Positions 39,694 through 61,962 of a DNA stretch of 64,000 bases are shown in pieces. Each line of letters opens with the position of its first letter. Position 1 is the stretch's first letter. Both the position numbers and the translations under genes were made by a program. The DNA is from Catenovulum sediminis (lineage in GTDB: Bacteria; Pseudomonadota; Gammaproteobacteria; Enterobacterales; Alteromonadaceae): contig NZ_CP041660.1 in NCBI RefSeq assembly GCF_007289895.1, positions 124,001 to 188,000 of the forward strand, read 5' to 3'. The notes beneath the pieces were generated by a model that was given only the letters and a program-made list of their open reading frames with translations, was not told the DNA's origin and ran no database searches.

Positions 39694-40593
39694 TTATACT
39701 GAGTTTTGCCTAAACCATTTGGTAATCACGGCTTTAAATCCTTTTTTTACGGGCTCGGCCTGATGCAGGCTATTGATGTTGCCTGTTAAGTCTGGGTTTA
39801 AACTATTCCAAATAACCGCCATACCTTGTTGCGGTTTAAAACCAATGCCTACATTTAAAAAATTGGTTTCACCACCCGCCTCAACATCATTTAGATAAAT
39901 CATCACAGTGTAAGTGCGCTGCCCCATTTTGCCGCCATGCTTTTGCAATTCATACGCTTCAAAGTAATCAGTATGCGCTTTAAATTGCTGCCCCACCTCG
40001 TAATACTGACCTTGAATAACTTCAGCGTACGTCGCAGGAATCGCCAATAAATCACAAATACGTTTATCAATACGTGCAATTAATTGATTATTAATAATGC
40101 CTAAATCACAAGTTCTACTGGTTCTAAAATTGGAATCTGAGGTTTGAGAGGCCAGCTCTGACGGTCTGAGTTTACTGCTTAGTAAATCAATCACAGCTTG
40201 GCATTCTTGTGCAGATAAAAAATGATTAAGCGTGTAAAGCTCTAGTGCATCGGACTCTAGTTTTTGCGCTTTAGATTGAGCCAGATGCTGCTGAACCCGA
40301 ATCAAGCGTTGTTGTACTTGTTTTTGCTGTTCGTTTTGTTGCTGTGCGTTTTGTTGTCTCATTAGCGGGTCGGATTGACTGACCGCAAAACTGGGATGAA
40401 AGGTGAATGGGTCAGAGGCGACATTCAGGCTTGCAGTTTGCTTGGCTTGTGTCACAACAGAAAATTGTTGTTCAATCAGATTAATATCAAAACCATGTTC
40501 TAATAAAATGGTCGTCAGCTCATTTTTATTACAACCTCGTTCGATATTGGTTTTTAACCATTGCTGCCATGATGCATCAAAAACTTTAGCCAT
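39694..40593 (-). CDS. 2OG-Fe(II) oxygenase, prolyl 4-hydroxylase-like
   Basis: About 299 residues. The C-terminal half is a P4Hc domain: iron ligands HxD in QQFKAHTDYFEAYE and a distal His in INSLHQAEPVKKGFKAVITKWFR, with the 2-oxoglutarate-binding Lys after it. QRTYTVMIYLNDVEAGGETNF lies between. The N-terminal part is helical, with a Gln-rich coiled segment (about 80-100). The target residue or small molecule is unknown. The ATG at 40593 is nine bases after AGG; ATG 40602 is the alternative. It follows the methyltransferase gene on the same strand with a 30-bp gap. Confidence 0.85.
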   Translation of the reverse strand: MAKVFDASWQQWLKTNIERGCNKNELTTILLEHGFDINLIEQQFSVVTQAKQTASLNVASDPFTFHPSFAVSQSDPLMRQQNAQQQNEQQKQVQQRLIRVQQHLAQSKAQKLESDALELYTLNHFLSAQECQAVIDLLSSKLRPSELASQTSDSNFRTSRTCDLGIINNQLIARIDKRICDLLAIPATYAEVIQGQYYEVGQQFKAHTDYFEAYELQKHGGKMGQRTYTVMIYLNDVEAGGETNFLNVGIGFKPQQGMAVIWNSLNPDLTGNINSLHQAEPVKKGFKAVITKWFRQNSV

Positions 40594-40634
40594 TGCTGTC
40601 ATCCTATTATTTTTATGTTAGTTATATTTAGATT

Positions 40635-41789
40635 TTATCCGTCACTGCGCTTTGCAATTATCATTAAATTTCTAGGTGTGGTGTGATAATCACAGAAGGC
40701 TTTAAGTTTTACTTGGTAACCCAAGTCCTGCAAATAAATGGCTTTATCCAACACCAGCCAATACTCAAGTGCCCGCTGAAAAACATGCCTTACACTTTCC
40801 AATTTTTGCGTAAATAAAGCTTTTTCCTGGCCAATTTCAAGATAATACTCATCATCAATAAAATCAGGCTGTTGCAAATTTTGATGATTGAGTCCCCATT
40901 TTGCAAATGCATTAAATTCACCACTAAACCAACTTTTATTAACTGACGGCAAAGACGCATATGCTGTTTGCCCACTGATATCAGCGCGTAGCGCCTGGTA
41001 AGCCAAACGCCAAAGCACTTCTTTTCGTCTTAATTCAGTTATGCGTTTACCACCGGTTACCTGAGCCTGTACCGCTAGCTTTAAAATATTACGTTTAATG
41101 TTTAACGAACTTGCTTGTCCTGCTTGTGAAAGCGCCGCATAACTGTCTTCAGCAATTAAGTGATAACAACAGGGTGCAAGATGCAATTGTTTAGAAGATA
41201 CCTTTTGCATGTGTTTTAATAAAGTCACGTGCAAATCACCACAGGCATGTAATGCGACAATATGTTGATCTACCTCGATAAAATTTAACGGATCTTGTAA
41301 TACATTGGTGTGTATAAATTTTTGAGGTATCTGATATTTGTGTGCCAACTCTGCACCTTGCTGGCATAAATGAGATTGCCACTCGGCACTGACAACTTTA
41401 CATTGGTGCTGAAAACTTAATAAACGCCCTAAGTGACCTTTGCCCGCACACCACTCCAAAACCGGGTAGATGGGTTTAATGTGACTACACAACTGTTTGA
41501 TCTGCTCTATTTTACGACCATGAATACCATTTGTGAGCCAAAAAGGAACTTCTTTTTGCCAATTTTCGTTAACAACGCCTGTTTGTTTTTCGCTGTTATT
41601 TAACCAGTTATGTACTTTAGGAAATATATTCTCCGCAATTTTAGAAGTTGAGTTGGTTTGCGATAATAAAGCATCCAATTGTGCGTTATTCCAAGGCACA
41701 GTAGTTTGTTCAAAAGGTACAAAATTCCAGTACGACTGATATTCAACCAATAAATCATCAAGCCGCTTAAAAGATTGTGTTAAGTTCAT
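40635..41789 (-). CDS. SAM-dependent methyltransferase (Methyltransf_32-like)
   Basis: A 384-residue protein. The SAM-binding motif I is PVLEWCAGKGHLGRLLSFQ, followed by VVSAEW, VDQHIVALHACGDLHVTLL and LAPCCYHLI. This set is typical of the Methyltransf_32 group (METTL25-like). The substrate, RNA, protein or small molecule, is unknown. Its start overlaps the stop of the upstream periplasmic-protein gene by four bases, and the oxygenase gene follows 30 bp later, so the three probably form one unit. Confidence 0.8.
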   Translation of the reverse strand: MNLTQSFKRLDDLLVEYQSYWNFVPFEQTTVPWNNAQLDALLSQTNSTSKIAENIFPKVHNWLNNSEKQTGVVNENWQKEVPFWLTNGIHGRKIEQIKQLCSHIKPIYPVLEWCAGKGHLGRLLSFQHQCKVVSAEWQSHLCQQGAELAHKYQIPQKFIHTNVLQDPLNFIEVDQHIVALHACGDLHVTLLKHMQKVSSKQLHLAPCCYHLIAEDSYAALSQAGQASSLNIKRNILKLAVQAQVTGGKRITELRRKEVLWRLAYQALRADISGQTAYASLPSVNKSWFSGEFNAFAKWGLNHQNLQQPDFIDDEYYLEIGQEKALFTQKLESVRHVFQRALEYWLVLDKAIYLQDLGYQVKLKAFCDYHTTPRNLMIIAKRSDG

Positions 41790-42976: not shown

Positions 42977-43300
42977 AGTAGACTCCAGGCGACAGAAAGT
43001 GCACGCAATTATCTACCATGTTAGCGTCAATACCAAATGTTCACGAAGATAATCGCAATTAAGCCGGCATTATGTATATACCCCAAACTTAAACAAAATT
43101 TACAGAACAAAAGCAAAACAGCAATTTGTATAAATAAAGTCACATAATTGGTAGTTGTTACTTTAGATTATGTCAATTGAACGCTAAACTTTAAATAATT
43201 TAATGAGATGCCAGTTTAATTTAATATCGGTGCAATACTTTGCGCTCGATAAACAGTGTTAAATACAACTGCGTTTAGGATACTTCCACTGGGAGAAAAC
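42977..43300. other. Divergent intergenic region before the giant lipoprotein gene
   Basis: About 320 AT-rich bases between two divergent genes, expected to hold both promoters. No supportable gene, operator, riboswitch or strong promoter was recognised. A GTG at 43256 extends the giant gene's frame upstream, but a much better ribosome site precedes the ATG at 43301. Confidence 0.5.
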
Positions 43301-46300
43301 ATGTACCATCCACGCATACCTCATTTTGTTAGAATGTTGTCTTTAGTCATTGCAACAAGTTTAGTTGCTTGTGGTGATAACGACTCTGCTAAGACAAATG
43401 AGCCACCTGTATCTAAGGTTCCAGATTCTGAAAATCAAATCGTTTTGTCGAGTGCGCCATTTAGCGATATTAAATTACCGACTCTTTTTTCTAATGGCTT
43501 ACCTGTTTCACATACTAAGGTTTCACATATCAAGCCAACTGAAAACCTCGCCCAACGTGGTTTAAGTAGCAGTAACTTAGAAACATTAACGGGTGACTTC
43601 GAGAGTATTAATACTTCTCCATGGGACGCTGAGCTTAAACATCTGAATAGCCCTATAAGCGGAAACTTTTTTACCCGTTTAACCATCAACAGTAATCAAC
43701 AAAACAGGCCGCAAAAGCTGTTTTTAAGTTTTGCAAATTCAGACAAAGTGGTACAGCTCTGCAATCAATGTACCGCGGCAGATATGGATATCACGATCAC
43801 AGGTATCAACCCGCTAAATTTCGATTTATCCAGCGGTAGCTTGACGTTACAAGTTTGGGGACAAAACGCAGCCGATATTACAGCGAATACCATTCGTCTG
43901 GTGAGTAGCCAAACCTTTAACTGGCAAAATATTGAGATTACGGGTATTTCAACCAGTCGAACTGAAGAAAGCATCAACCTAAACTGGTTGGCTCTAGGTG
44001 GCAATTTTGATCGCTATAACCTGTACTGGCGAGTAGACGATGGTGAACAACAGCAAAAACTGGCCTTAAAGAGCACCAGCTATAGTATCCCAGCACAAGG
44101 CGGCAGTTTCCAAATTGAAATTCGAGGCGTCAACGCAGACGGGGAAAGTGCGCGCTCACAAACCATTTTGTTAAATAACCAAGCCCCTGTATTTGCCGCA
44201 ACACTCTTTACAACAGCAGAAGACACCCCATTAACTGGCAATATCTCCAGTTTTTTCTCCGACCCTGACGGACACACAGTCAATGCGGTTGTCATGTCAA
44301 CCGGCACTATGGCTAATGGAAGCTTTAGCTTAGCCGAAAATGGTGATTTCACTTATACGCCAGCGACCAATTTTTTTGGCGCAGACTCGGTTTCAATCGA
44401 AATAATAGATCAATTTGGTGCCACAAGCAGCGGACAAATCGACTTTAGCGTAACACCTGTAAACGATGCGCCCGTTGCACAAAACGACTCATTTAAATTA
44501 ACCGATAACGAAAGCGGTGTTTATGTTATCAATTATACTGATTTATTGGCCAATGATGCAGATGCAGACAACGACAACTTAAGCATCTTAATAGAGCAGT
44601 TTTCAACACCTGTACATGCAACCCTGAATGCTGATAATGATCAACTGAGTTTAACAACCGAGGCTGGATTCATTGGACAGGTTACTTTCAGCTATCAGGT
44701 GGCTGATACGCAAGGGTTGCAATCACAAGCTGAAGTTACAGTAGAAATCGGTGATGTCGGTGAAGCGTTACAAGCAGTCAACGACATTTTGTCAGTGGAT
44801 GAAGACACCTTACTGCAAAGTAATCTATTGCTTAATGACAATATTGCGTCAACGGTTCCTTATACACTCTCTATCGTAACGCCAGCCAATCATGGCAGTG
44901 TAATTCTCGATCAAGAAGGTAATTTAACCTACCAACCAAGTGCTAACTTTAACGGTACAGATTCTTTTACTTATCAACTACAGCAAAGTGATGGTGTCAG
45001 TAGTGCAACAGTCAGTATTGAGATAAATGCAGTAGATGATGCACCGCTGGTAATGGCCGACAGCTACTCTGTCAATAAAGGCCAACTATTGCAAATTGCT
45101 GCGCCGGGTGTATTGGCCAACGATATGGAGTTTGATGGCGATCCCACTACTTTGGCTGTAAAAACGATACCCGCTCAAGGCGCGTTAACACTTAATAATG
45201 ACGGCAGTTTTGACTATCAAGCCAATGACACCTTTGTCGGTATAGACACCTTTGTTTATACCTTATCGGATGGTGTAAATGAGCCAATTGAAGGCACTGT
45301 GACGATTCAAATTAACGAAGTCAATTTAGTGCCTAGCGTTATTAATGGTGATTTTGTTACCGACGAAGATATCAGTATTACATTGAACCTGAACAACCAG
45401 GCAACTGATCCCGAAAATGAAACTTTAGTTTATTCCATTCAAAATCAACCCATTAATGGCACTGCGAATATTAGTGGTGCGATCCTCACCTATCAACCCA
45501 ATGCAAACTATACTGGCACAGACTCTTTGACATTTGTTGCCAGTGACGGGGTGAATACATCCGCAGCCGCGACAATTGATTTAACCATAAATCCCGTTAA
45601 TGACTTACCAGAATTGACGCAAACCGAATTCGATGTTGCCGAAGATGCGAGTTATAATCTTGATTTACTCAGTATCTCATCAGATGCCGAACAAGATACG
45701 CTGACTTTTAGTATTGCTAAAAACCCTGATTTTGGCCAAGTGACCTTAACCGGCAGCCAGTTATCATATACGCCTTTAGAGAATTTTTCGGGTGTCGAAC
45801 GCATTGAAATTACCTTAGATGATGGCCAAGGTACACCTGTTACAATTGAAATCTCGTTACTCGTTGCAGTTGAAAATGATGCACCTGTGATAACAGCACA
45901 AACATTCAATACCAATGAAGATGCGGTACTGAATATCAATTTAAATGATTTCGTAACAGATGAAGATGGCGATACTTTAAGCTACAGTGTTTTTGCATTC
46001 CCATTAAACGGGCAATTTACCCTAACCAATAGCGATGCCATTTATACTCCTAATCCCGAATTTTCAGGCACCGACAAATTCCAAATCCAAGTAAGTGATG
46101 GTTTAGCAACAACCTCTGGTGAATTTATCATACAAGTAAACGCAGTAAATGATGCGCCAGAAGCGTTTGCAGGCAATGTAACGTTAAATGCCGGCCAATC
46201 CAGCATTGTTGATTTAAGCCAATACAGCACAGATATAGACAGTGAAACACTGACATATTCGGTTACAACAAATCCAACACAAGGCTCCTTTTTACTTGAA

Positions 46301-49300
46301 GGAAGTAGTCTGATTTACACGCCTAACCAAGGCTTTGAAGGGGTCGATAGTTTATCCTTTATCGCCAATGATGGCGAGCTTAACTCTGCCGCAGCGGTTA
46401 TTCAATTTGATGTCATGTCGAATGTAAATAATCAATTTACCCCGCAAGCTATTTCTTATCTGCCAATCGAGTTTAACGCCACAGATATAAAAGTGAACGG
46501 TGATGTATTGTATTTATCACACAGTACCGGTGTCAGCCTTTTCGACATAACAGACAAAAAAAATGTCAATCACATTACAACCTATACAACCAACTCGCCT
46601 GTTAAACAGATTGAGATTTTAGCAAATGTCCTCTATCTAGTTTTAGAAGGTGGCGTTTTAGTCTCACTCGACGTTAGCCAACCTCTGGCGATCACCGAAT
46701 TAAGTAATTTAAATCTTGGTGGCGAAATTAGCGATGTAACATTCGCCGGTCCCTATCTTTTGGTCACCAACGAACTTGGCGGAGCTGATTTTGTTTATAG
46801 CGAACAAGGCAAAGATTTAACGAAAGCCATTCGCTTCAACAGCGTTGATAAAATCAATACTGTCTCAACCAATGGTGATTTTTTAGCATTTTCGACAGAC
46901 AACAAAATTTTGGTTATTGATACTCAAAATGTAGTTTCACCTGATCTCTCCAACGCTGCTGAGTATCAAATTTCAAATGTAAAAAAACTCTATTTGAATA
47001 ACAATAATACTTTGTACGTCGCCTGCCAGTTATGCGGATTTAAAACCTTTAGTGTGGCATCGTCGGATAGTAGTGAACCACCGGTAATAGAGCTCATTAG
47101 CGACAGTAACCACTTTTTCCCAAGTACTTTTGCAACAACAGCAAACTTTGCGGTATTTAACGATAGTTTATTCACAAACGCGTTGCCAATTGTCGATATC
47201 AGTGACACTCAAAACCCGGTATTTAGCCAAATTATCGATCTAAGTATATTTAGTACGCAGCGCCCTATCGCACTGGATGTAGATGCACAATACGTTTACG
47301 CAACCGGCCAGAATACAATTTATATTGCGCAGTACCGACAAACGTCTGAACCAGCCAATAATGTCAGTGATAGAGTCAGCCTAGACTATTTTGCGTTTTT
47401 AAATCCGCAAGTTACCGAAAATGCGGTTTTTCAGGTAGAGGCAAATTATCAGTTTGCCAATGATAAAAACGAATACCCTATCCGCGTTGACTTTTATATT
47501 GATGAAGTGCTGCTTGGTAGCGATTCAAAATGGCCATTTCAATTAACGACAACCGCGCCAAGTACAGAGTTTACAATTGCGGCACACTATATTTTTGCCA
47601 ATCAAATGAGTGTTAACTTAACACAAACCATTGCTCCTCTCCCCGACTCTGACTCTGATGGTTTATCCGATTTAATTGAAACTGCACAATATAATTCCAA
47701 TATAAACTCAATTGACAGCGACGGTGATACGCTCAATGACAAGTTAGAAGCCATTATTTTTACCAACCTGAATTTAACCGACTCAGATAACGATTCAGTT
47801 GACGATGCCAATGAGTTTAACAATAACCAAGATCCAATAAACCCAGACAGAACTGCGCCACAAGTGGAATCGCAATCTCCGGCAGCGGATGCAAGCGATG
47901 TATGCGAATATGAAAACGTCGAAATTCACTTTAACGAACCACTTAACAATCGTTTATTTAACGCATCAAACATTATATTGACGCAAGGCGAGTCGGTTAT
48001 TCCGTCAACGGTAACGGCAAACGCCAATCATACCGCGATTATATTAAACCCAGCACAGAACCTGCAGTCTGAAACCACTTATTTCGTAACCGTGCAACCC
48101 GTTTATGATTTAGCGGGTAATGCAAGCCAGACATTTAATTTTTCGTTTTCAACGACAACTTGTACAGAATCTATTCGCCCATCAGTGGAATCATTTTCAC
48201 CTACTGCAAACAGTGACAATATTGCAACCAATACTCAAATTGCCGTTAAATTTAACGAAAAAATAGATCCTGCCAGCGTTAACTCTGATAATGTTTATTT
48301 ACTCGACTTAACAACATCAGAGCGCATTTCAGGTCAAATAATCTTAAATTCAAATAATGATGGTTTGTTATTTGCGCCTAATGAAGCGCTTAAAGCGGGT
48401 CGTAATCACAGATTATATACCACAGCTCTGATTACTGATTTATTTGGCAACTTTTTATTTCCCAACAGTGTAACATTTACAACCGGTTATCAATCGGACA
48501 CGACTGCGCCTGAAGTACTGACGTTCAGTGTACCGGATAATTATCAGTTGATCTCACCAAGTGCACCACTCGCCGTCAAATTCAGTGAAGCGATTAACCC
48601 TGAAAAAATTAGCGGCATAGAACTAACATTGGCAGGTGAAAACGTGCCTAGTACGCTAAGCTTTGATGACAATAAGCAACGCGTTATTATTCAACCGACA
48701 AACGTTTTACAAAGTGGGCAAACTTATCAAATAAGAGTATCGGATATAGCTGATTTAAGCGGCAATCTACTCACCAGCTCGCAGTCGTTAAGTTTCACGA
48801 CATCAGCTGAAGAGGTTTCGCAAGAAGCGAAATTAATCGCATGGAGTTTACATAGCAACGGACAGCAAAATTTACCATTAAATACAAAACTATCCGTACT
48901 ATTTGATCAAGCTATCGATGTGTCTTCAATTAATGAGAGCAGCGTATACCTATATGATTCAACAGGAACAAGAACGGTTAATAGCAGTGTCACCTGGTCT
49001 GCAGATCAAAAAGCACTGCATATAGAACCGCATGAAGCATTAAAACCGCAGCGAACATACCGCTTATACATCAGCTACACGGCCCCACTATATGCCATCA
49101 GTGGCATCGCAACGGATAGATTTTTAGTACGCAGCTTTACAACAACAACCACGACTGATCAAAGTGCACCGACCATTAGCGTACATACGTTACAAGAAGA
49201 GAATTTACTAGCAGTCAACAGCCAGTTAAGCGTTCAATTTGATGAGTCAGTTAATCCTTTTTGCGAAGGTGCAAGTCTCAACTTGATAGATGATAACGAG

Positions 49301-52300
49301 ACTCCGGTTGCCCACAGTTGGTCGTTAGATTCAGATAGCCGTGTTATCCACATTGTCCCCGATAGCAACTTAAATACAGATAGCAGTTATAAAGTAGTTA
49401 TTAATAACCTTTGCGATCACGCGGGCAATCAACTGACAGCAAATACCCTTGTATTTACAACTGGCTCATCGTCTGAAGAAGACACCAGTGCGCCGAACCT
49501 AATTGATATGGATCCGCCGCATCAAAGTAGTAATGCAAACTTAGATACCCCCATCACACTCACTTTTGATGAGCCGATATCTCCACTTTCCAGCATCAAA
49601 GTAACAGGTGCGGCCGGTGTAACGGTTGCTGGTTCAACGGAGTTTTCAGGCAACACTTTGGTATTCACACCGTCTGTACCATTACAAGGTGACACTCGCT
49701 ACAACGTGGCGATGAATTTCCGAATTTATGATTTAGCTGGCAACAATAAAAGTTTAAGTACTCGATACTTTAATACACTGCAACAAATTGATCAGGATAA
49801 GCCAGTAGTGGTCTTTAGCAGCCCGGCCAATGGGCAAAGTGATGTCAGTCCACAACAACAAGTTAAGTTAGAGTTTAATGAGCCGCTCAATAAATCGACA
49901 ATCACTAACGATAATTTTGCGCTGTTCCACAATGGTGAACGCTTGTCCACGACGATTTATCATTCTGACGACAATATGACAGTGACACTAGAAAGTCATT
50001 TGCCACAAACTGCATTGGTGAGTCTAGTTGTAACCGATGACGTGACGGATATATCCGGTAACACGTTAGATCCCTTTATTGCCAGTTTCACCACGGGTCT
50101 GAATAAAAATGAAATAATCAGACCTCAGATCAAACGTATGTCACCTGAGCTGACCCTTTATAGTAACCAAGCGCTCAATACCTTGTATTTATATGCCAGT
50201 GAACCCTTAGATGAAAACTCACTGACAAATAACTTATTTGTCACCCAGGATGGTGTGCTACTGAATACAACTAGTGAACTAATCGCAAACGGTTATGTGA
50301 TTAAAGTCAGTAATACCACAAACTTTGCAGAAAATAGTTTAATAGAAGTACGCTTAACATCAGATGTGACAGATGTTAATGACAACCCGTTGTTTGCCTA
50401 TCAAAACTCATTTTTTGTGAATAACGCCTCAGAGCAAAGCGGGATCAGCCCGTTTATTGTCGACGTATCCTTCAATAATTTTGCAACTTTGACACAAACT
50501 AACCCTGTGTTCAGATTAAAATTCAGCGAACCCCTGAATGCCGAAACAATAACAGACGACAACATCAATCTTAAAAATTCATTCTCAGGTACAAATATTC
50601 CGGTAGACGTTGAGCTCTCTGCATCCGAGGATATTATAATCGTTACGCCAGCTATTGAACTATCAGCTGAGCAAAATTATATCCTGCAACTGTCCACCAA
50701 CATAGAAGATAGCGATGGGGACGCCATCGCGTTTACAATCAGCCGATTTTTTAGCTTATCTGAAAACGCGATATTTGATGATAGAACACCCGAATTGTTA
50801 CTGTTTAGCCCACCTGAGGTTGCACAGGAAGTCTCGATACAACCGAATGTTGCAATGCAGTTTGATGAAGCAATTGATCTTTTATCAATAGATTATCAAC
50901 AACAAGAAATAACGGATGTAGAAATATCCGGCGATAAAAAAACGATTCGTTATCGTGTCAGTCAGCCATTTGCGCCCAAACAAACAATTAACTACAACCT
51001 GCCACGCGTCGCCGATTTTTCAGGTAACTTGACAGCCAACAAAGTAGTGGATTTCACAACCGGTGAAACACCCGACTTTATTGCACCAACCCTGACTGAA
51101 ACCAGCTTTGCGCAAAATGAAATCATCAGTAGAAACGCTACATTTTACTGGCAATTTAACGAAGCTATCGATCCGACCAGTATGACCTCAGAAAACGTCT
51201 ATTTATGGGATTATGTGACAAATGCAAAAGTAGCCTCTGCACTAGAAATCTCTAATGATTTGAAAACCGTTAAAATTATTCCAACCCAAGCGTTGGCAGC
51301 GGGCAGACGTTATGTATATTACGCTTATGGGCTACGTGATTTAAGCGGAAATTCGATATCCTATAGCTCGGTATCTGTGAAAACCAATTTTGAAGAAGAT
51401 ACCAACGCACCATTTGTAACAGCTACAACCCTGCAAGACGGTGCGACAAATGTTCCTGTTAACCTTAAATTTAATGTCCGGTTTAATGAAAAAGTTAGGT
51501 TAACAGAACAAAGCATAATTAGATTAGAAGACTCAACTGGCAATCAAATAGCGATAAATTCAACGCTAACGCGTGAACAAAACCTATTGTCGGTCGTGCC
51601 ACAACAGCTGTTGTCGGCATCAACCGAGTACACATTAACAGTTGAAAATGTCAGCGACACATACGGTAACATTCAACAAGAAACTTTACTGATCAGCTTC
51701 ACGACCGGTACACGAGCCGATTTAGCAGGCGGTCAAGTTGAAATTTGGGGCTTTGATAGCGCAAACACACAAGATTTGGCCATTAACCCGGTTATCGGTT
51801 TAGAATTTTCAGAAGCGATTGATCCGGCCACGATAGACAGTGATTCATTATATTTATGGGAAAGTACACGTGCTCGCGCAACCGCTCTGCAATACAATAT
51901 ATTGGCAGACCAACAAACTATTTTATTAACACCTGAAAATACTTTGCCTGAATATTCAAGTTTTGCCGTATATCTCTCTTACGCCCCCTATATCACTGAC
52001 TTAGCGGGTAATCGTATTAATGCATTGGTGCGTTACTTTACAACAGGCAACGAGCTAGATGAAACACCAGCAAATATCATCAACACCAGTTTTGCAAATG
52101 CTGCTAATGAAATGCCGCTTAATACTCAAATCAGCATAGAATTTGACGAACGTATTGCCAGAGCATGTGAATTGGAGTGCATCAAAATAATAGATAGTAA
52201 TAACAATACTGTTGAGTTTGCCGGCGAAATCAGTAGCGATAAAAAAACCATAACCTTAATACCCCAAAACTTACAGCCTGCTCAAAGCTACACTATTATT

Positions 52301-54955
52301 GCAGATGGTTTATTTGATTACTCTGGAAATGCTTTAAATACAGAAATTGTTAATTTCACGACTTCTTCGCAAAGCACAATAGATGATGTTGCCCCCAGCT
52401 TTGTTGAAATGATGCCAGCGCATCAATCAACAGACGTTGCGCTAGACATGTCACAAATTATCCTAACCTTTGACGAAAATATAGCGCAGACCAGTCGGAT
52501 CACCATTAGTGCAAATGGTGCCGATGTCGATGGCTCACAAAGTGTCAATGGTAATCAGTTGATATTTAATCCTGCTACACCACTATCCCCAAATACTCGT
52601 CACACGGTTCGCCTGTACAACGAAATCAGTGATTACGCTGGCAATTATAAAAATTTAAGTACTAAATACTTTGATACGGCAGACATCACAGATAACACCT
52701 CGCCGACTATTGTTTCAGTTTTACCAACCAACGGCAGTACAGCGGTTTCTGTAAAACAACCGATAGAAATTGCATTCAGTGAACCGATGAACTCAAATAC
52801 ACTTAATAGCAACAATATTGCTGTTTTTGAAAATGGTGTAAAACAAAGTGTCTCGATCAGCCGTTCTGTTGATAATAAACGTGTCCTAATTAATGCAGGT
52901 AATCTAGCTGAAAACGCAGTAATCGAGATTGCACTGCACAATTCAATTACAGATATTAGTGGTAATACAATCACCGATTTTGTCAGTAGCTTTACTACGG
53001 CAGACAATCAATATGAAACCAGTAAACCCTATGTTATCAGCCGTTATCCAGCCAACACAGAAGCATTGAATGAAGCACCAGAAAAGCTAGTCATCTATTT
53101 TTCTGAAAAGCTATCGGCGCAAAGTTTACCGGCGAGTTTTGAAATTGCGGTAAATGGTCAGCCAGTCAGCATTCAAAGTCAGTTAGACCCTAGCCAACAT
53201 GCCATATTGATTACACTACCAGATAATCTTGCAGCACCTGCTCGTATTGACTACGCATTGCCCGATACACTGACTGATTTAGCGGGTAATTATGCCTATG
53301 ATACCGAGGGTTATTTCACACTCAATGACCTTGATAATACAAACTTGTTTATAAAGGGGCATTTCCCGAACCACAATTCAATTTCATTAAACAGCAAAAT
53401 TGATATCTTGTTTAGCCACCCTCTTGACCAGTCAACTGTTAATACAAGTAGTATCATCATGACTGATACCACGGCAAACCCCGATGTAAATATCCCGATT
53501 ACTGTAGCGCTCAACGCAAATAACCCCGCATTAGTCACAGTAACGCCAGATACAATACTAAGCCCGAATACCCAGTATAGAATTAACCTAAGTACTGAAC
53601 TAGCAGCCAATAACGGCAATACATTTACATCGCAGCGCATTATTAGCTTGCAAACGTCAGATAAGTCGACAATAGATCAAGAAGTCCCCACCATTGTTGC
53701 ATTCAATCCAAGCTCTGATTTGAATAATATTGGTATCAACCCGCAGTTCGCTTTAAAATTTAGTGAAACCGTTAATCCACTTAGATTTACGCCAACTGGT
53801 GTTAATCAGGCTTCCATTCTAACGACAGAGCAAAATACAATTTTTTATTACACCCTGAAAGAACCGTTAACCACGCTGCAACAACACACATTCATTTTAA
53901 ATGATTTGATTTATGACGATGCAGGAAACGTCGCAGCCGACCATACCTTTAGTTTTTCAACGGGCGAAACAATTGATTTTAATGGGCCTATATTGCTCGA
54001 CGCTTCTATTGTAAATAACCAAATGACCATAGCGACCAATTTGGCTGCGGAATTTTTATATAACGAAGCAATTGACCCAGTGTCAATTGAAGCCGACCGC
54101 GTTTATATCTACAACCACGCTAACGGAGAAAATGTTAGCAGTAATATTCAGCTTTCTGAAAACAATCGCAGAATAACCATAACGCCAAATGATCTATTAG
54201 AAGCTGGCACACAGCATACTATATATCTAACCGGCTTACGCGATACCAGTGGCAACTCCGCGAGTGCGACTTCCAGAACTATGGTTACAGGGTTTTCAGA
54301 AGATAACGATAAACCGACTGTTATCAACACCAATATTCTAAATGGACAGCAAAACGTGCCACTCAATCCAGTTATCAATATTAAGCTGGACGAATCGATT
54401 TCCCCTATAACCTTAGATATGGTCCAATTGGTGGATAATGAAAACAAAACAATTGCAGTTTCAGTAGATTACCTACATAACCGCCAGCAAATAGCGCTAT
54501 CGCCTGCCGAGTTACTGCAACCTCAAACAACATATCAACTCACGATTGCTGAAATAACAGATAACAGCGGTAATACATTAAGCAATGCAATTAATATTAG
54601 CTTTACCAGCAGTAATACCGTTGATCTTACGATCCCCAATGATATTGAATGGAATTTCAACGCGAACCAACAAGAAATTACCACTGATTTTACGCCAACA
54701 GTTACATTTGACGAGATGTTAGACACCACCAGCATAAACAACGAAAGCTTTTATCTATTGGACAACAATAACAATCTCGTCGCCGCCACGCTAACCGTAA
54801 ATACCCAAAGAGATAAAATCACTTTGGTACCGGATAATGCGTTAGAGTTAAATACAACCTATACACTTTATGTTGGCTACAACCCGTACCTGTATGATTT
54901 ATCAGCTAATAGAGCAAATTCAACGTTTCGGCGCTTTACCACTACGGACAACTAG
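43301..54955 (+). CDS. Giant multidomain surface lipoprotein (about 3,884 residues)
   Basis: One uninterrupted 11.7-kb frame. ATG 43301 has GGGAG five bases upstream. Order: lipoprotein signal (LSLVIATSLVAC, Cys about 24); unassigned region; FN3-like domain (about 205-290); eight cadherin-like domains with DxNDAPV linkers and EDT/SDPDGD motifs (about 291-1040); LVIVD-type propeller repeats (about 1047-1347); an Ig-like domain; three TSP3-like calcium repeats (DSDSDGLSD, DSDGDTLND, DSDNDSVDD; about 1447-1513); then 22 Big_5/SbsA-like Ig domains of about 107 residues to the C-terminus. No Type 1 secretion tail, LPXTG or transmembrane anchor is seen, so the lipid would be the anchor. An extended calcium-stiffened adhesin or matrix protein is inferred. 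Neighbours give no clue. Confidence 0.9.
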   Translation: MYHPRIPHFVRMLSLVIATSLVACGDNDSAKTNEPPVSKVPDSENQIVLSSAPFSDIKLPTLFSNGLPVSHTKVSHIKPTENLAQRGLSSSNLETLTGDFESINTSPWDAELKHLNSPISGNFFTRLTINSNQQNRPQKLFLSFANSDKVVQLCNQCTAADMDITITGINPLNFDLSSGSLTLQVWGQNAADITANTIRLVSSQTFNWQNIEITGISTSRTEESINLNWLALGGNFDRYNLYWRVDDGEQQQKLALKSTSYSIPAQGGSFQIEIRGVNADGESARSQTILLNNQAPVFAATLFTTAEDTPLTGNISSFFSDPDGHTVNAVVMSTGTMANGSFSLAENGDFTYTPATNFFGADSVSIEIIDQFGATSSGQIDFSVTPVNDAPVAQNDSFKLTDNESGVYVINYTDLLANDADADNDNLSILIEQFSTPVHATLNADNDQLSLTTEAGFIGQVTFSYQVADTQGLQSQAEVTVEIGDVGEALQAVNDILSVDEDTLLQSNLLLNDNIASTVPYTLSIVTPANHGSVILDQEGNLTYQPSANFNGTDSFTYQLQQSDGVSSATVSIEINAVDDAPLVMADSYSVNKGQLLQIAAPGVLANDMEFDGDPTTLAVKTIPAQGALTLNNDGSFDYQANDTFVGIDTFVYTLSDGVNEPIEGTVTIQINEVNLVPSVINGDFVTDEDISITLNLNNQATDPENETLVYSIQNQPINGTANISGAILTYQPNANYTGTDSLTFVASDGVNTSAAATIDLTINPVNDLPELTQTEFDVAEDASYNLDLLSISSDAEQDTLTFSIAKNPDFGQVTLTGSQLSYTPLENFSGVERIEITLDDGQGTPVTIEISLLVAVENDAPVITAQTFNTNEDAVLNINLNDFVTDEDGDTLSYSVFAFPLNGQFTLTNSDAIYTPNPEFSGTDKFQIQVSDGLATTSGEFIIQVNAVNDAPEAFAGNVTLNAGQSSIVDLSQYSTDIDSETLTYSVTTNPTQGSFLLEGSSLIYTPNQGFEGVDSLSFIANDGELNSAAAVIQFDVMSNVNNQFTPQAISYLPIEFNATDIKVNGDVLYLSHSTGVSLFDITDKKNVNHITTYTTNSPVKQIEILANVLYLVLEGGVLVSLDVSQPLAITELSNLNLGGEISDVTFAGPYLLVTNELGGADFVYSEQGKDLTKAIRFNSVDKINTVSTNGDFLAFSTDNKILVIDTQNVVSPDLSNAAEYQISNVKKLYLNNNNTLYVACQLCGFKTFSVASSDSSEPPVIELISDSNHFFPSTFATTANFAVFNDSLFTNALPIVDISDTQNPVFSQIIDLSIFSTQRPIALDVDAQYVYATGQNTIYIAQYRQTSEPANNVSDRVSLDYFAFLNPQVTENAVFQVEANYQFANDKNEYPIRVDFYIDEVLLGSDSKWPFQLTTTAPSTEFTIAAHYIFANQMSVNLTQTIAPLPDSDSDGLSDLIETAQYNSNINSIDSDGDTLNDKLEAIIFTNLNLTDSDNDSVDDANEFNNNQDPINPDRTAPQVESQSPAADASDVCEYENVEIHFNEPLNNRLFNASNIILTQGESVIPSTVTANANHTAIILNPAQNLQSETTYFVTVQPVYDLAGNASQTFNFSFSTTTCTESIRPSVESFSPTANSDNIATNTQIAVKFNEKIDPASVNSDNVYLLDLTTSERISGQIILNSNNDGLLFAPNEALKAGRNHRLYTTALITDLFGNFLFPNSVTFTTGYQSDTTAPEVLTFSVPDNYQLISPSAPLAVKFSEAINPEKISGIELTLAGENVPSTLSFDDNKQRVIIQPTNVLQSGQTYQIRVSDIADLSGNLLTSSQSLSFTTSAEEVSQEAKLIAWSLHSNGQQNLPLNTKLSVLFDQAIDVSSINESSVYLYDSTGTRTVNSSVTWSADQKALHIEPHEALKPQRTYRLYISYTAPLYAISGIATDRFLVRSFTTTTTTDQSAPTISVHTLQEENLLAVNSQLSVQFDESVNPFCEGASLNLIDDNETPVAHSWSLDSDSRVIHIVPDSNLNTDSSYKVVINNLCDHAGNQLTANTLVFTTGSSSEEDTSAPNLIDMDPPHQSSNANLDTPITLTFDEPISPLSSIKVTGAAGVTVAGSTEFSGNTLVFTPSVPLQGDTRYNVAMNFRIYDLAGNNKSLSTRYFNTLQQIDQDKPVVVFSSPANGQSDVSPQQQVKLEFNEPLNKSTITNDNFALFHNGERLSTTIYHSDDNMTVTLESHLPQTALVSLVVTDDVTDISGNTLDPFIASFTTGLNKNEIIRPQIKRMSPELTLYSNQALNTLYLYASEPLDENSLTNNLFVTQDGVLLNTTSELIANGYVIKVSNTTNFAENSLIEVRLTSDVTDVNDNPLFAYQNSFFVNNASEQSGISPFIVDVSFNNFATLTQTNPVFRLKFSEPLNAETITDDNINLKNSFSGTNIPVDVELSASEDIIIVTPAIELSAEQNYILQLSTNIEDSDGDAIAFTISRFFSLSENAIFDDRTPELLLFSPPEVAQEVSIQPNVAMQFDEAIDLLSIDYQQQEITDVEISGDKKTIRYRVSQPFAPKQTINYNLPRVADFSGNLTANKVVDFTTGETPDFIAPTLTETSFAQNEIISRNATFYWQFNEAIDPTSMTSENVYLWDYVTNAKVASALEISNDLKTVKIIPTQALAAGRRYVYYAYGLRDLSGNSISYSSVSVKTNFEEDTNAPFVTATTLQDGATNVPVNLKFNVRFNEKVRLTEQSIIRLEDSTGNQIAINSTLTREQNLLSVVPQQLLSASTEYTLTVENVSDTYGNIQQETLLISFTTGTRADLAGGQVEIWGFDSANTQDLAINPVIGLEFSEAIDPATIDSDSLYLWESTRARATALQYNILADQQTILLTPENTLPEYSSFAVYLSYAPYITDLAGNRINALVRYFTTGNELDETPANIINTSFANAANEMPLNTQISIEFDERIARACELECIKIIDSNNNTVEFAGEISSDKKTITLIPQNLQPAQSYTIIADGLFDYSGNALNTEIVNFTTSSQSTIDDVAPSFVEMMPAHQSTDVALDMSQIILTFDENIAQTSRITISANGADVDGSQSVNGNQLIFNPATPLSPNTRHTVRLYNEISDYAGNYKNLSTKYFDTADITDNTSPTIVSVLPTNGSTAVSVKQPIEIAFSEPMNSNTLNSNNIAVFENGVKQSVSISRSVDNKRVLINAGNLAENAVIEIALHNSITDISGNTITDFVSSFTTADNQYETSKPYVISRYPANTEALNEAPEKLVIYFSEKLSAQSLPASFEIAVNGQPVSIQSQLDPSQHAILITLPDNLAAPARIDYALPDTLTDLAGNYAYDTEGYFTLNDLDNTNLFIKGHFPNHNSISLNSKIDILFSHPLDQSTVNTSSIIMTDTTANPDVNIPITVALNANNPALVTVTPDTILSPNTQYRINLSTELAANNGNTFTSQRIISLQTSDKSTIDQEVPTIVAFNPSSDLNNIGINPQFALKFSETVNPLRFTPTGVNQASILTTEQNTIFYYTLKEPLTTLQQHTFILNDLIYDDAGNVAADHTFSFSTGETIDFNGPILLDASIVNNQMTIATNLAAEFLYNEAIDPVSIEADRVYIYNHANGENVSSNIQLSENNRRITITPNDLLEAGTQHTIYLTGLRDTSGNSASATSRTMVTGFSEDNDKPTVINTNILNGQQNVPLNPVINIKLDESISPITLDMVQLVDNENKTIAVSVDYLHNRQQIALSPAELLQPQTTYQLTIAEITDNSGNTLSNAINISFTSSNTVDLTIPNDIEWNFNANQQEITTDFTPTVTFDEMLDTTSINNESFYLLDNNNNLVAATLTVNTQRDKITLVPDNALELNTTYTLYVGYNPYLYDLSANRANSTFRRFTTTDN
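48170..54952 (+). repeat. Nine-domain super-repeat within the giant lipoprotein gene
   Basis: The last 21 Ig domains repeat with a period of nine domains: block A 48170-51070, block B 51071-53973, and three domains of block C 53974-54952. Equivalent codons are 2,901 or 2,907 bp apart (for example Pro codons at 48179, 51086 and 53987; Ala codons at 49490 and 52391). Equivalent domains share private signatures, such as SLSTRYF and NLSTKYF in the fifth domain, or NVYLLD, NVYLWD and RVYIYN in the first. Neighbouring domains do not share these. DNA identity is low, so the duplication is old. Confidence 0.85.
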
Positions 54956-59966: not shown

Positions 59967-61907
59967 ATGAACCTTACATTAGAATGCAAACGTAGTTTAA
60001 ATCGCATTTTGTCACGCGTAGATCTGAGTAAACTCAGTAAAAACGACTCGAAAATCTTTCATGAAAGATTAACGCAACACTTTCCGCGTTTATTTGAGCT
60101 TCTAGTGACAGTTTATAACGAACGCTATGATATGCACTACCAGTTAGAACAGTTAGTGCAGCAACTCGCAGACAGCTTTAAAGCGCGCCCGGCCGCGCAA
60201 AAGAAAAAAGACAAGCAACGCCTAAATAACCCACACTGGCATCAATCAGAAGATATGTTGGGGATGGCTTGTTACGTTGATTTAATTGCGGAAGATTTAG
60301 CCGATTTACAAACAAAAATCCCCTACTTTAAAGATTTGGGGATCACCTATTTACATTTAATGCCGCTCTACAAATCACCAGAAGGTGACAGCGACGGGGG
60401 TTATGCAGTATCAGATTACCGCTGCGTGAACCCCAAATTAGGTACGGTTCAAGAGCTGAATAACCTTGCTAAAGCGCTTGATAAAGCGGGTATCAGCTTG
60501 GTGTTAGATTTTGTATTTAATCATACCTCAGACGAACATGAGTGGGCGCTCAAAGCACGTGCCGGCGATGAAGATTTTGCCGAGTACTATTATTTATTTG
60601 AAGATAAATCAATTGTCGACGAATATGAAAAAACACTGCGAGAAATATTCCCACAAGTGCGCAGAGGCAGTTTCACCTACCTTGAAGACAGTAAAAAATG
60701 GGTTTGGACGACATTTAACAGTTTCCAGTGGGACTTAAATTATTCGAACCCAACCGTATTTACTGCCATTGTCGGTGAAATGTTATTTTTAGCCAATTTA
60801 GGGTGTGATGCCTTGCGTTTAGACGCACTTGCGTTTATCTGGAAAGAAATGGGCACCACATGTGAAAACCAACCGAAAGCACATAAATTAATACAAGCAT
60901 TTAATGCCTGCTTGCAAATAGCGGCACCTGCGGTTGTGTTTAAATCAGAAGCAATCGTGCACCCCGACGAAGTAGTTAAATACATCGCACCAGAAGAATG
61001 CCAACTTTCATACAACCCGTTAACCATGGCGTTAATTTGGAATAGTTTGGCAACACGTAAAACGCGTTTAATTACACAATCATTATCGCACCGCTTTGCC
61101 ATCAATCCAGATTGCACATGGGTCAATTATGCCCGTTGTCACGACGATATCGGCTGGACATTTGACGATGGTGACGCAGGCATCTTAGGGATCAATGGTT
61201 ACGACCATCGACTCTTCTTAAACAAATTTTTTACCGGACAGTTTGAAGGTAGCTACGCAACCGGTATGGGATTTCAGTTTAATCCTGAAAATGGTGATTG
61301 TCGTGTATGTGGCTCGTTAGCGTCATTGGCTGGTTTAGAGCAAGCTTTAGAGCAACAAGACCCGCACTTGCTAGAAATGTCGATTGGTAGAATACTCTTA
61401 ATTCACAGCATTTTATTAAGTATCGGTGGCATCCCTCTACTCTATGCCGGCGATGAGTTAGGTATGTTAAATGATTACAGCTTTTTGCAAGACGATCATA
61501 AAAAGCATGATTCTCGCTGGGTGAATCGTCCCGCCATTAGCAATGAAGATGTTGTACTAGCTCATACACCCGGCACAGTGCAAAACCGTATCAATCAAGG
61601 TATCAGGCACTTAATTAAAATACGTAAAACCCATCCGGTGTTAGGTCGCGCAAAAACGCAAGTTATTCATACCGGTAGTGATCACTTGTTTGGTTATCAG
61701 CGCATCCATGAAAATGGCGACAAATTGCTGGTATTGTGTAACTTCAGCGAAAACGAACAAACAGCTCACGCCAGTGTATTTGAACACCTATTACCTGCTT
61801 CTCAAGCGTATGACTTAATCAACGATGAAATTATTACGTTTGATTTTAATCTGGGCAAAACACTCACCGCATATCAAGTGAGTTGGTTGTATGTTAAAGC
61901 TCAATAA
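59967..61907 (+). CDS. Amylosucrase (GH13)
   Basis: A 646-residue GH13 enzyme that transfers glucose from sucrose to alpha-glucan and releases fructose. It aligns with Neisseria polysaccharea amylosucrase without a shift at the active site: the nucleophile Asp286 (LRLDAL), acid/base Glu328 (KSEAIV) and Asp393 (CHDDIGW) fall at the same numbers as in that enzyme. The helical N-terminal domain and ALGL-type insert (GINGYDHRLFLNKFF) are present. This separates it from sucrose phosphorylase and hydrolase. AGG precedes the ATG. It is followed by a fructokinase, which would use the released fructose. Confidence 0.93.
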   Translation: MNLTLECKRSLNRILSRVDLSKLSKNDSKIFHERLTQHFPRLFELLVTVYNERYDMHYQLEQLVQQLADSFKARPAAQKKKDKQRLNNPHWHQSEDMLGMACYVDLIAEDLADLQTKIPYFKDLGITYLHLMPLYKSPEGDSDGGYAVSDYRCVNPKLGTVQELNNLAKALDKAGISLVLDFVFNHTSDEHEWALKARAGDEDFAEYYYLFEDKSIVDEYEKTLREIFPQVRRGSFTYLEDSKKWVWTTFNSFQWDLNYSNPTVFTAIVGEMLFLANLGCDALRLDALAFIWKEMGTTCENQPKAHKLIQAFNACLQIAAPAVVFKSEAIVHPDEVVKYIAPEECQLSYNPLTMALIWNSLATRKTRLITQSLSHRFAINPDCTWVNYARCHDDIGWTFDDGDAGILGINGYDHRLFLNKFFTGQFEGSYATGMGFQFNPENGDCRVCGSLASLAGLEQALEQQDPHLLEMSIGRILLIHSILLSIGGIPLLYAGDELGMLNDYSFLQDDHKKHDSRWVNRPAISNEDVVLAHTPGTVQNRINQGIRHLIKIRKTHPVLGRAKTQVIHTGSDHLFGYQRIHENGDKLLVLCNFSENEQTAHASVFEHLLPASQAYDLINDEIITFDFNLGKTLTAYQVSWLYVKAQ

Positions 61908-61954
61908 AGAAGAGTAAAGAAGATTAAAGAAGCGTAAAGAAGATTAAAGAAGAG
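61905..61954 (+). repeat. Five 10-bp tandem repeats between amylosucrase and fructokinase
   Basis: TAAAGAAGAG, TAAAGAAGAT, TAAAGAAGCG, TAAAGAAGAT, TAAAGAAGAG in perfect tandem. The first TAA is the amylosucrase stop, and the array ends 8 bp before the fructokinase ATG at 61963. Each unit carries the purine-rich AAAGAAG, which resembles a weak ribosome site. Confidence 0.9.
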
Positions 61955-61962
61955 TAAAAGTG

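Follow-up and report, generated by a model that had tools for sequence, protein, structure and literature searches.

How a bacterial surface protein lengthens an array of Ig-like domains without setting similar domains side by side is the question raised by a giant frame in the 64,000-nucleotide stretch of Catenovulum sediminis DNA analysed here (the window). The product of this frame, protein A, ends in 22 Big_5-like domains, and an earlier note had proposed that this array grew by copying a block of nine domains as a unit rather than by adding single domains. Growth by nine-domain blocks was borne out, both by the period found in A and by its relatives, and we consider it likely that A is a giant surface lipoprotein with a 22-domain Ig-like stalk in a nine-domain repeat, whose blocks arose by unequal recombination in registers 3 and 4 of the repeat.

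Protein A carries a diverged nine-domain super-repeat

Protein A corresponds to frame 43256-54955 of the window (3,899 aa). Its GTG start at 43256 is probably too early: by eye, an ATG at 43301 is preceded by GGAG, and the plus-strand interval 43301-43372 probably holds the true start and a lipoprotein signal ending in LVAC (residues 36-39, Cys codon 43370-43372, also by eye), which fits the lipobox rule and makes A a putative lipoprotein. On the same strand, domain matches place eight tandem-95 / Big_9 / cadherin-like domains at about 44210-46390, and these are followed at 46400-47845 by a propeller-like region with an Asp-rich linker, homologous to the LVIVD-bearing region of a paralogue (B) described below. 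The two proteins are 28% identical over 483 columns of their pre-array regions (E 5e-40), LVIVD scoring over its cut-off in B only and A's propeller-like region remaining below it. Elsewhere in the window, 2OG-Fe(II) oxygenase and methyltransferase genes lie upstream of A on the minus strand (39694-41789), and a short tandem repeat of unit TAAAGAAGAG occupies an intergenic position at 61894-61958.

As the earlier note had counted, 22 domains lie above the 23.6-bit cut-off of Big_5 (PF13205) in this frame, the whole protein scoring 760.5 bits; hmmscan counts 21 Big_5 stretches. Domain 1 (47846-48166, plus strand, as are all the following) stands outside the period and its closest match in B is B domain 1. 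Copy 1 of the super-repeat comprises domains 2-10 (48167-51073), copy 2 comprises domains 11-19 (51074-53974), and copy 3 has registers 1-3 only (domains 20-22, 53975-54952), which form the C-terminus. The starts of the three copies are thus 2,907 and 2,901 bp apart, within the 2,901-2,907 bp previously claimed.

The claimed period was recovered quantitatively, since the mean score of domain pairs was 129.4 at offset 9 (n=13) and 123.6 at offset 18 (n=4), as compared to 46-92 at the other offsets. When the domain order was shuffled, none of 20,000 permutations reached the offset-9 value at any offset leaving at least 8 pairs, and 4 of 2,000 did so in a looser test that covered more offsets. 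Using the first domain boundaries, 16 of 21 domains had their best partner 9 or 18 positions away (17 of 21 with HMM boundaries); the exceptions with the first boundaries, domains 8, 9, 17, 18 and 19, belong to registers 7-9, the weakest part of the repeat, where the two copies are merely 23-28% identical. Growth by single domains was rejected, 20 of the 22 domains having a best partner that is not a neighbour; domains 15 and 17 are exceptional in having domain 16 as best or runner-up partner, and 17-16 is the sole first-ranked neighbour pair. Immediate neighbours (offset 1) average 26% identity. Across the 25 arrays described below, A and B among them, position-equivalent domains are more alike than neighbours, as in a higher-order super-repeat.

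The shared motifs that had been named were also located, SLSTRYF/NLSTKYF in domains 6/15 and YISYTAPLY/YLSYAPYI/YVGYNPYLY in domains 4/13/22. Sharing of Cys-containing domains within a register held in part: the register-4 domains 5 (49157-49480) and 14 (52058-52381) each carry a Cys pair whose first Cys aligns (column C365), but the second is placed differently in the two. Another Cys pair lies in domain 1, outside the period. The predicted DNA dot-plot line at 2.9 kb was not confirmed for the A gene, which has no direct repeat of at least 40 nt and no exact repeat of at least 24 nt; a tandem-repeat run on the window covered periods of up to 500 only and was blind to this spacing. Since the copies are 43-44% identical in codon-aligned DNA (31-32% in protein) and lack any such exact repeat, the block event must be old in A.

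A paralogue and relatives share the same register

The same genome (G000, 4.87 Mb, 2 contigs) encodes paralogue B (L011:4926-15260, 3,444 aa), which carries LVIVD repeats and 24 Big_5 domains and has a stronger +9 band than A (254 versus 43-96 at offsets that are not multiples of 9). For 20 of the 22 domains of A, the best match in B was in register (0 modulo 9), and the mean A-B score was 152 in register versus 41-74 in the eight other shifts. Because A and B match in the same register, the register predates their split, although each may have gained its blocks on its own. In B, offsets 2, 7, 11 and 16 are also raised, a weaker +2 signal that hints at an older two-domain duplication. Two other frames of this genome have Big_5 matches: a 12,393-residue open frame on the minus strand of G000:C2 (about 499573-512505) with three weaker ones, and a 4,049-aa protein (L012:651-12800) with one.

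Searches with the B block matched 12 of 40 relatives (E<=1e-3), 6 of 394 genomes of the order (E<=1e-20), 21 of 395 genomes of the family and 4 of 369 of the class, in samples of one genome per species that overlap and include the own genome. With the G752 block (E<=1e-40), matches were found in 5 of 59, 4 of 4 and 1 of 7 genomes of three further sets. The distribution of the gene is patchy rather than universal. We studied 25 arrays carrying ten genus labels; the second array of G490, the weak matches in G622, G992, G1016, G035 and G039, and L046 (G720, interrupted frame) were left out, and L043-L045 served solely for their contig ends. Offset 9 was best in all 25 arrays and was reached by at most 9 of 2,000 shuffles per array, L034 with 173 of 2,000 being the exception.

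We then ran ten register HMMs, built from A and its own B alone, on the domains of other proteins. Every domain was assigned in 14 of the 22 other proteins with at least 14 domains. Twelve of these gave the reading 0,1-9,1-9,1-5, the A-type L026 gave 22 domains and the A-type L027 gave 18, its last four domains lying on a separate piece. One domain was split in L029, one was missed in L024 and two in L028. The reading was partial for L034, for L037 and for L025, L035 and L036, which form a second subfamily (B2) from one genus; an extra HMM match in register 8 of L029 and one fragment of L023 were merged. A 70-N assembly gap (L027:5533-5602) splits the A-type gene of G003, so this gene is not thereby shown to be broken.

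Domain numbers were 24 in 18 arrays, 22 in three (A, L026 and L037), 18 plus 4 in L027, 15 in L028 and G1124, and 14 in L034, and none of the 25 arrays was longer than 24. Once the three A-type proteins and L037 are set aside, 21 B-type arrays remain, of which 18 have 1+9+9+5 = 24 domains. The A-type length is 22 domains in two species and is split into 18 and 4 in the third.

The middle block of relatives is a chimera

Per-register identities linked the head of copy 2 to copy 3 and its tail to copy 1. Of the 18 proteins with 24 domains, 17 had copy 2 nearer copy 3 at register 1 and 17 did so at register 2, with L029 and L023 deviating by less than 1 percent; at register 5, copy 2 was nearer copy 1 in all 18. 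Between these, nine proteins were nearer copy 3, one tied and eight were nearer copy 1 at register 3, and the corresponding numbers at register 4 were six, two and ten. The head being nearer copy 3 and register 5 nearer copy 1, with a split at registers 3-4, the join lies in registers 3-4. In A itself, where copy 2 is 36% identical to copy 3 and 32% to copy 1 at register 1, 28% to both at register 2, and where copy 3 has no register 5, the copies are too diverged for this join to be read.

This pattern revises two parts of the earlier proposal. Domains 2-10 had been described as copied to 11-19, but in the readable relatives the middle block is the added one, with the head of copy 3 and the tail of copy 1, and by homology domains 11-19 of A would be the added block as well. 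The C-terminal partial copy had been described as a truncated third copy, but it is the original terminus, which has five domains in most B-type proteins and three in A. Using X1-X9 for the full block and Y1-Y5 for the tail, the ancestral stalk was probably one odd domain followed by X1-X9 and by Y1-Y5, the latter akin to X1-X5. If register-3/4 domains of X and Y recombined unequally, Y1-3 and then X4-9 would be inserted, giving 24 domains, and the reverse event would remove the block. Stalk length would thus change by nine domains per step while neighbours stay unlike. The counterparts in A of the relatives' recombination patch are the register-3 domains 4 (48818-49156), 13 (51722-52057) and 22 (54623-54952).

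A candidate parent and a candidate product of block gain

A recent case was found in G752 (L033): DNA identity is 100% between copies 2 and 3 in registers 1-3 and between copies 1 and 2 in registers 5-9, and the match runs unbroken for 2,777 nt at a spacing of 2,904 bp. G1124, of the same genus and with a block 96% identical, has 15 domains and no middle block. Best matches from G752 to G1124 linked domains 1-3 to 1-3, 5-10 to 5-10, 11-12 to 11-12 (Y1-Y2), 14-19 to 5-10 (X4-X9), 20-21 to 11-12 and 23-24 to 14-15, the register-3 domains 4, 13 and 22 of G752 matching domains 4 and 13 of G1124 equally. One unequal crossover in registers 3-4 would convert the layout of G1124 into that of G752, which is the simplest account for G752. 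G752 has identical copies, yet its genome and that of G1124 are several percent apart (93.7% nucleotide identity before the array); the gain therefore happened after their split, if the length of G1124 is right.

The G1124 array contains a 593-nt exact repeat, its two copies 2,904 bp apart, in registers 3-4, together with one of 39 nt there, and no further exact repeat of at least 24 nt. Both in G1124 and in L028 (G103, of another family), the sole direct repeat of at least 60 nt lies in register 3 with a spacing of 2,904 bp. The register-3 domains of these two are just 55-57% identical in protein, so each must have been homogenised separately. Between orthologues, register 3 shows no unusual conservation (mean identity 45.6-47.4%, within a 24-domain range of 38.6-52.0), and the identity of the patch therefore reflects recombination.

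These same features bear on a different reading, in which assembly collapse produced the 15-domain forms, every B-type gene has 24 domains and nothing but the homogenisation is real. Fifteen-domain forms with an identical patch, as in G1124 and G103, are what a short-read collapse of a 24-domain gene with identical blocks is expected to give, excerpts of PMC6868369 describe repeats that collapse in assemblies, and two contigs of G664 and one of G709 break off within register 3 (L044 right, L045 left, L043 left), as expected if a near-identical patch lies there. Against this, G1124 is a single 4.97 Mb contig (G103 is in about 30), and L034 (G430), a third short form with 14 domains, has no identical register-3 patch, though its +9 signal is weak (173 of 2,000 shuffles). 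We find this reading rather unlikely. Gain of a block as a unit is seen in the G752/G1124 pair, where the short form may be a collapse, and in A by homology only; the B-type lengths of 15 and 24 domains in two species hold if the 15-domain form is not a collapsed assembly.

Trees point to repeated remaking or to conversion of the copies

We built a tail tree (registers 5-9, 40 rows, 21 proteins) and a head tree (registers 1-2, 61 rows, 21 proteins), both without B2_G440, C_G895, B_G430 and G1124. In the tail tree, G283, G669 and G016 each had their first and second copies as sisters; the two copies were identical in G752 and fell together in G490+G020, in B2 and, with weaker support and long branches, in A. 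Most Catenovulum B copies grouped with the same copy of other species. In the head tree, the first-copy heads of 19 of 21 proteins formed one group, the two stragglers being B2 heads; copies 2 and 3 paired in G669, G016 and G752, grouped in G490+G020 and B2, and were unpaired in A and G283. AU tests, on groups picked after the trees were seen, rejected one clade of all first-copy tails (p 1.4e-41) and one of all third-copy heads (p 5e-76), mildly rejected one of all first-copy heads (p 0.0075), and left standing a clade of both tail copies of Catenovulum B (p 0.25). The block may thus have been made more than once, or its copies homogenised later; repeated remaking and long-term conversion are both compatible with the trees.

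If a single ancient nine-domain duplication had made all copies, later likeness would come from gene conversion at constant length. The grouping of most Catenovulum B copies by position fits this, as do the 24 domains of 18 of 25 arrays with none longer, and so does L023, whose high identity between copies 1 and 2 is confined to near-identical registers 6-9 and looks like conversion outside registers 3-4. However, a single crossover accounts for G752, whereas conversion would need two tracts that meet in the same patch; the block is missing from its close relative G1124; and a single origin of first-copy tails is rejected, though conversion could cause that too. We regard such a history as unlikely for the arrays as a whole, and length-constant conversion could still be the source of part of the tree pattern in older lineages. 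The chimeric block and the G752/G1124 pair together argue for unequal recombination in registers 3-4 as the source of the blocks. A has kept no readable DNA trace or chimeric pattern, so the same growth route is extended to it by homology, and its blocks could have been added independently of those of B.

Cysteines, gene neighbourhood and predicted structure

Among arrays of at least 20 domains (thus without L027, L028, L034 and G1124), Cys pairs occur at domains 5, 14 and 23 in all 15 of the 24-domain B arrays outside B2, at 5 and 14 in A and L026, and at 4, 13 and 22 in the three B2 arrays; L037 has a single Cys. Further pairs lie in domain 1 in 9 of the 15 B arrays and in domains 6/15/24 in three, with one odd pair each in L019, L029 and L023 and an extra pair in domain 24 of B2. 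Such a recurring pair suggests a nine-domain functional period. That the period itself is a convergent constraint, every ninth domain doing the same job (binding or a disulphide) with no duplication involved, is hardly credible despite these pairs, because all nine registers correspond rather than one and near-identical DNA at nine-domain spacing in some relatives largely refutes it.

The B-type gene sits in a conserved cluster: in the 21 non-A loci, a large upstream gene (F1) is present in 19, a gene of 127-173 aa (F3/F8) in 17, and a downstream gene in 19, of family F2 (16) or F13 (3). Pfam found thioredoxin-type domains in two F2 proteins and one F13 protein, all those searched, and one disulphide per super-repeat may be formed by this oxidoreductase of the operon. 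In the genome studied here, F1 has 1,676 aa, a lipoprotein-like start, and Glucodextran_B and carboxypeptidase-regulatory-like domains. None of these neighbours is found at the A locus; families F9, F10 and F11 come after A in 3 of 3 A loci, the F9 and F10 members of the window being HDOD and ArgJ. Beside the B cluster, divergent genes at L038:8205-13897 and L040:5318-10925 encode an FG-GAP protein, which exceeds the ASPIC/UnbV cut-off only in L040, and a cytochrome that matches MtrC/MtrF-type and c554 domains; G752 has an FG-GAP neighbour too (L039:12308-15655). Identities with CglD, MtsC and MtsD were rejected, as the NCBIfam matches were far below cut-offs.

AlphaFold2 modelled domains 11-19 of A as all-strand domains (pLDDT 80) whose packing is unsure (pTM 0.43). 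Foldseek against the PDB returned many Ig-type chains and other beta proteins, the best by E-value being the algal flagellar glycoprotein FMG1B; with model-normalised TM-scores of at most 0.16 among the 50 matches listed and this pTM, these are fold-level leads only. A sequence profile gave three weak matches to PDB sequences, two to the S-layer protein Sap and one to a SLAM family member. The stalk may keep the N-terminal domains at a fixed spacing that serves adhesion or cell contact.

Relation to known repeat proteins

Super-repeats are already known. Blocks of non-identical domains, with equivalent domains alike, recur in the A-band super-repeats of titin and in the seven-domain units of nebulin, and growth by multi-domain units, often mid-array, is reported or proposed there, according to excerpts of PMC10665226 and PMC1553488. 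A-type and B-type blocks of unlike domains likewise repeat as a unit, but here in a bacterial, exon-free gene, within one domain family, and with a copy number changed by a join in one register. It is this route of block gain that is a new variant.

Periscope Proteins, as presented in passages of PMC8201768 and PMC9704523, are bacterial surface stalks whose repeat number varies, with intragenic recombination at identical DNA proposed, and their adjacent domains are near-identical, against the rule that neighbours diverge. Protein A does not have the highly identical tandem domains that define them (26% at offset 1, no exact repeat of at least 24 nt), and the identical patch of its relatives lies nine domains away. 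Titin misfolds vanish faster when identity between neighbours is low (PMC4660218), and the divergence of neighbours presumably protects folding here. The Acinetobacter BAP is, like A, a giant Ig-like surface protein with a repeated multi-domain unit (an EFG module in 2 or 4 copies), but its modules are others and the account of it used here, part of PMC4647330, has no nine-domain register. A match to Big_5, which A and B share with Pfam Big_5 (PF13205) proteins, B also resembling LVIVD proteins, is by itself silent on a super-repeat. Among the matches listed from the open-access literature searched (titles, abstract starts and passages), we found no bacterial case of the mechanism and no combination of unlike neighbours with an identical patch nine domains off, and among the papers listed on Catenovulum, its genomes and adhesion, none was by title on this protein.

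What these arrays may mean for stalk length

These arrays form a bacterial, intron-free counterpart of titin-like super-repeats in which a probable parent and a probable product of block gain can be aligned base by base. With 18 of 21 B-type arrays at 24 domains, stalk length becomes a trait open to testing. We also entertain, tentatively and while leaning against it, that the self-homogenising register-3 domain serves as a recombination cassette, switching the B-type stalk from 15 to 24 Ig domains and back. If true, a cell line would change its fibre length by one fixed step, with neighbours too different to misfold together, which would bring the Periscope idea into line with the divergence rule for neighbours. 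More generally, unequal recombination in registers 3-4 suggests how a repeat protein may change length without similar Ig domains adjoining, a conflict raised in the passages of the Periscope papers cited above.
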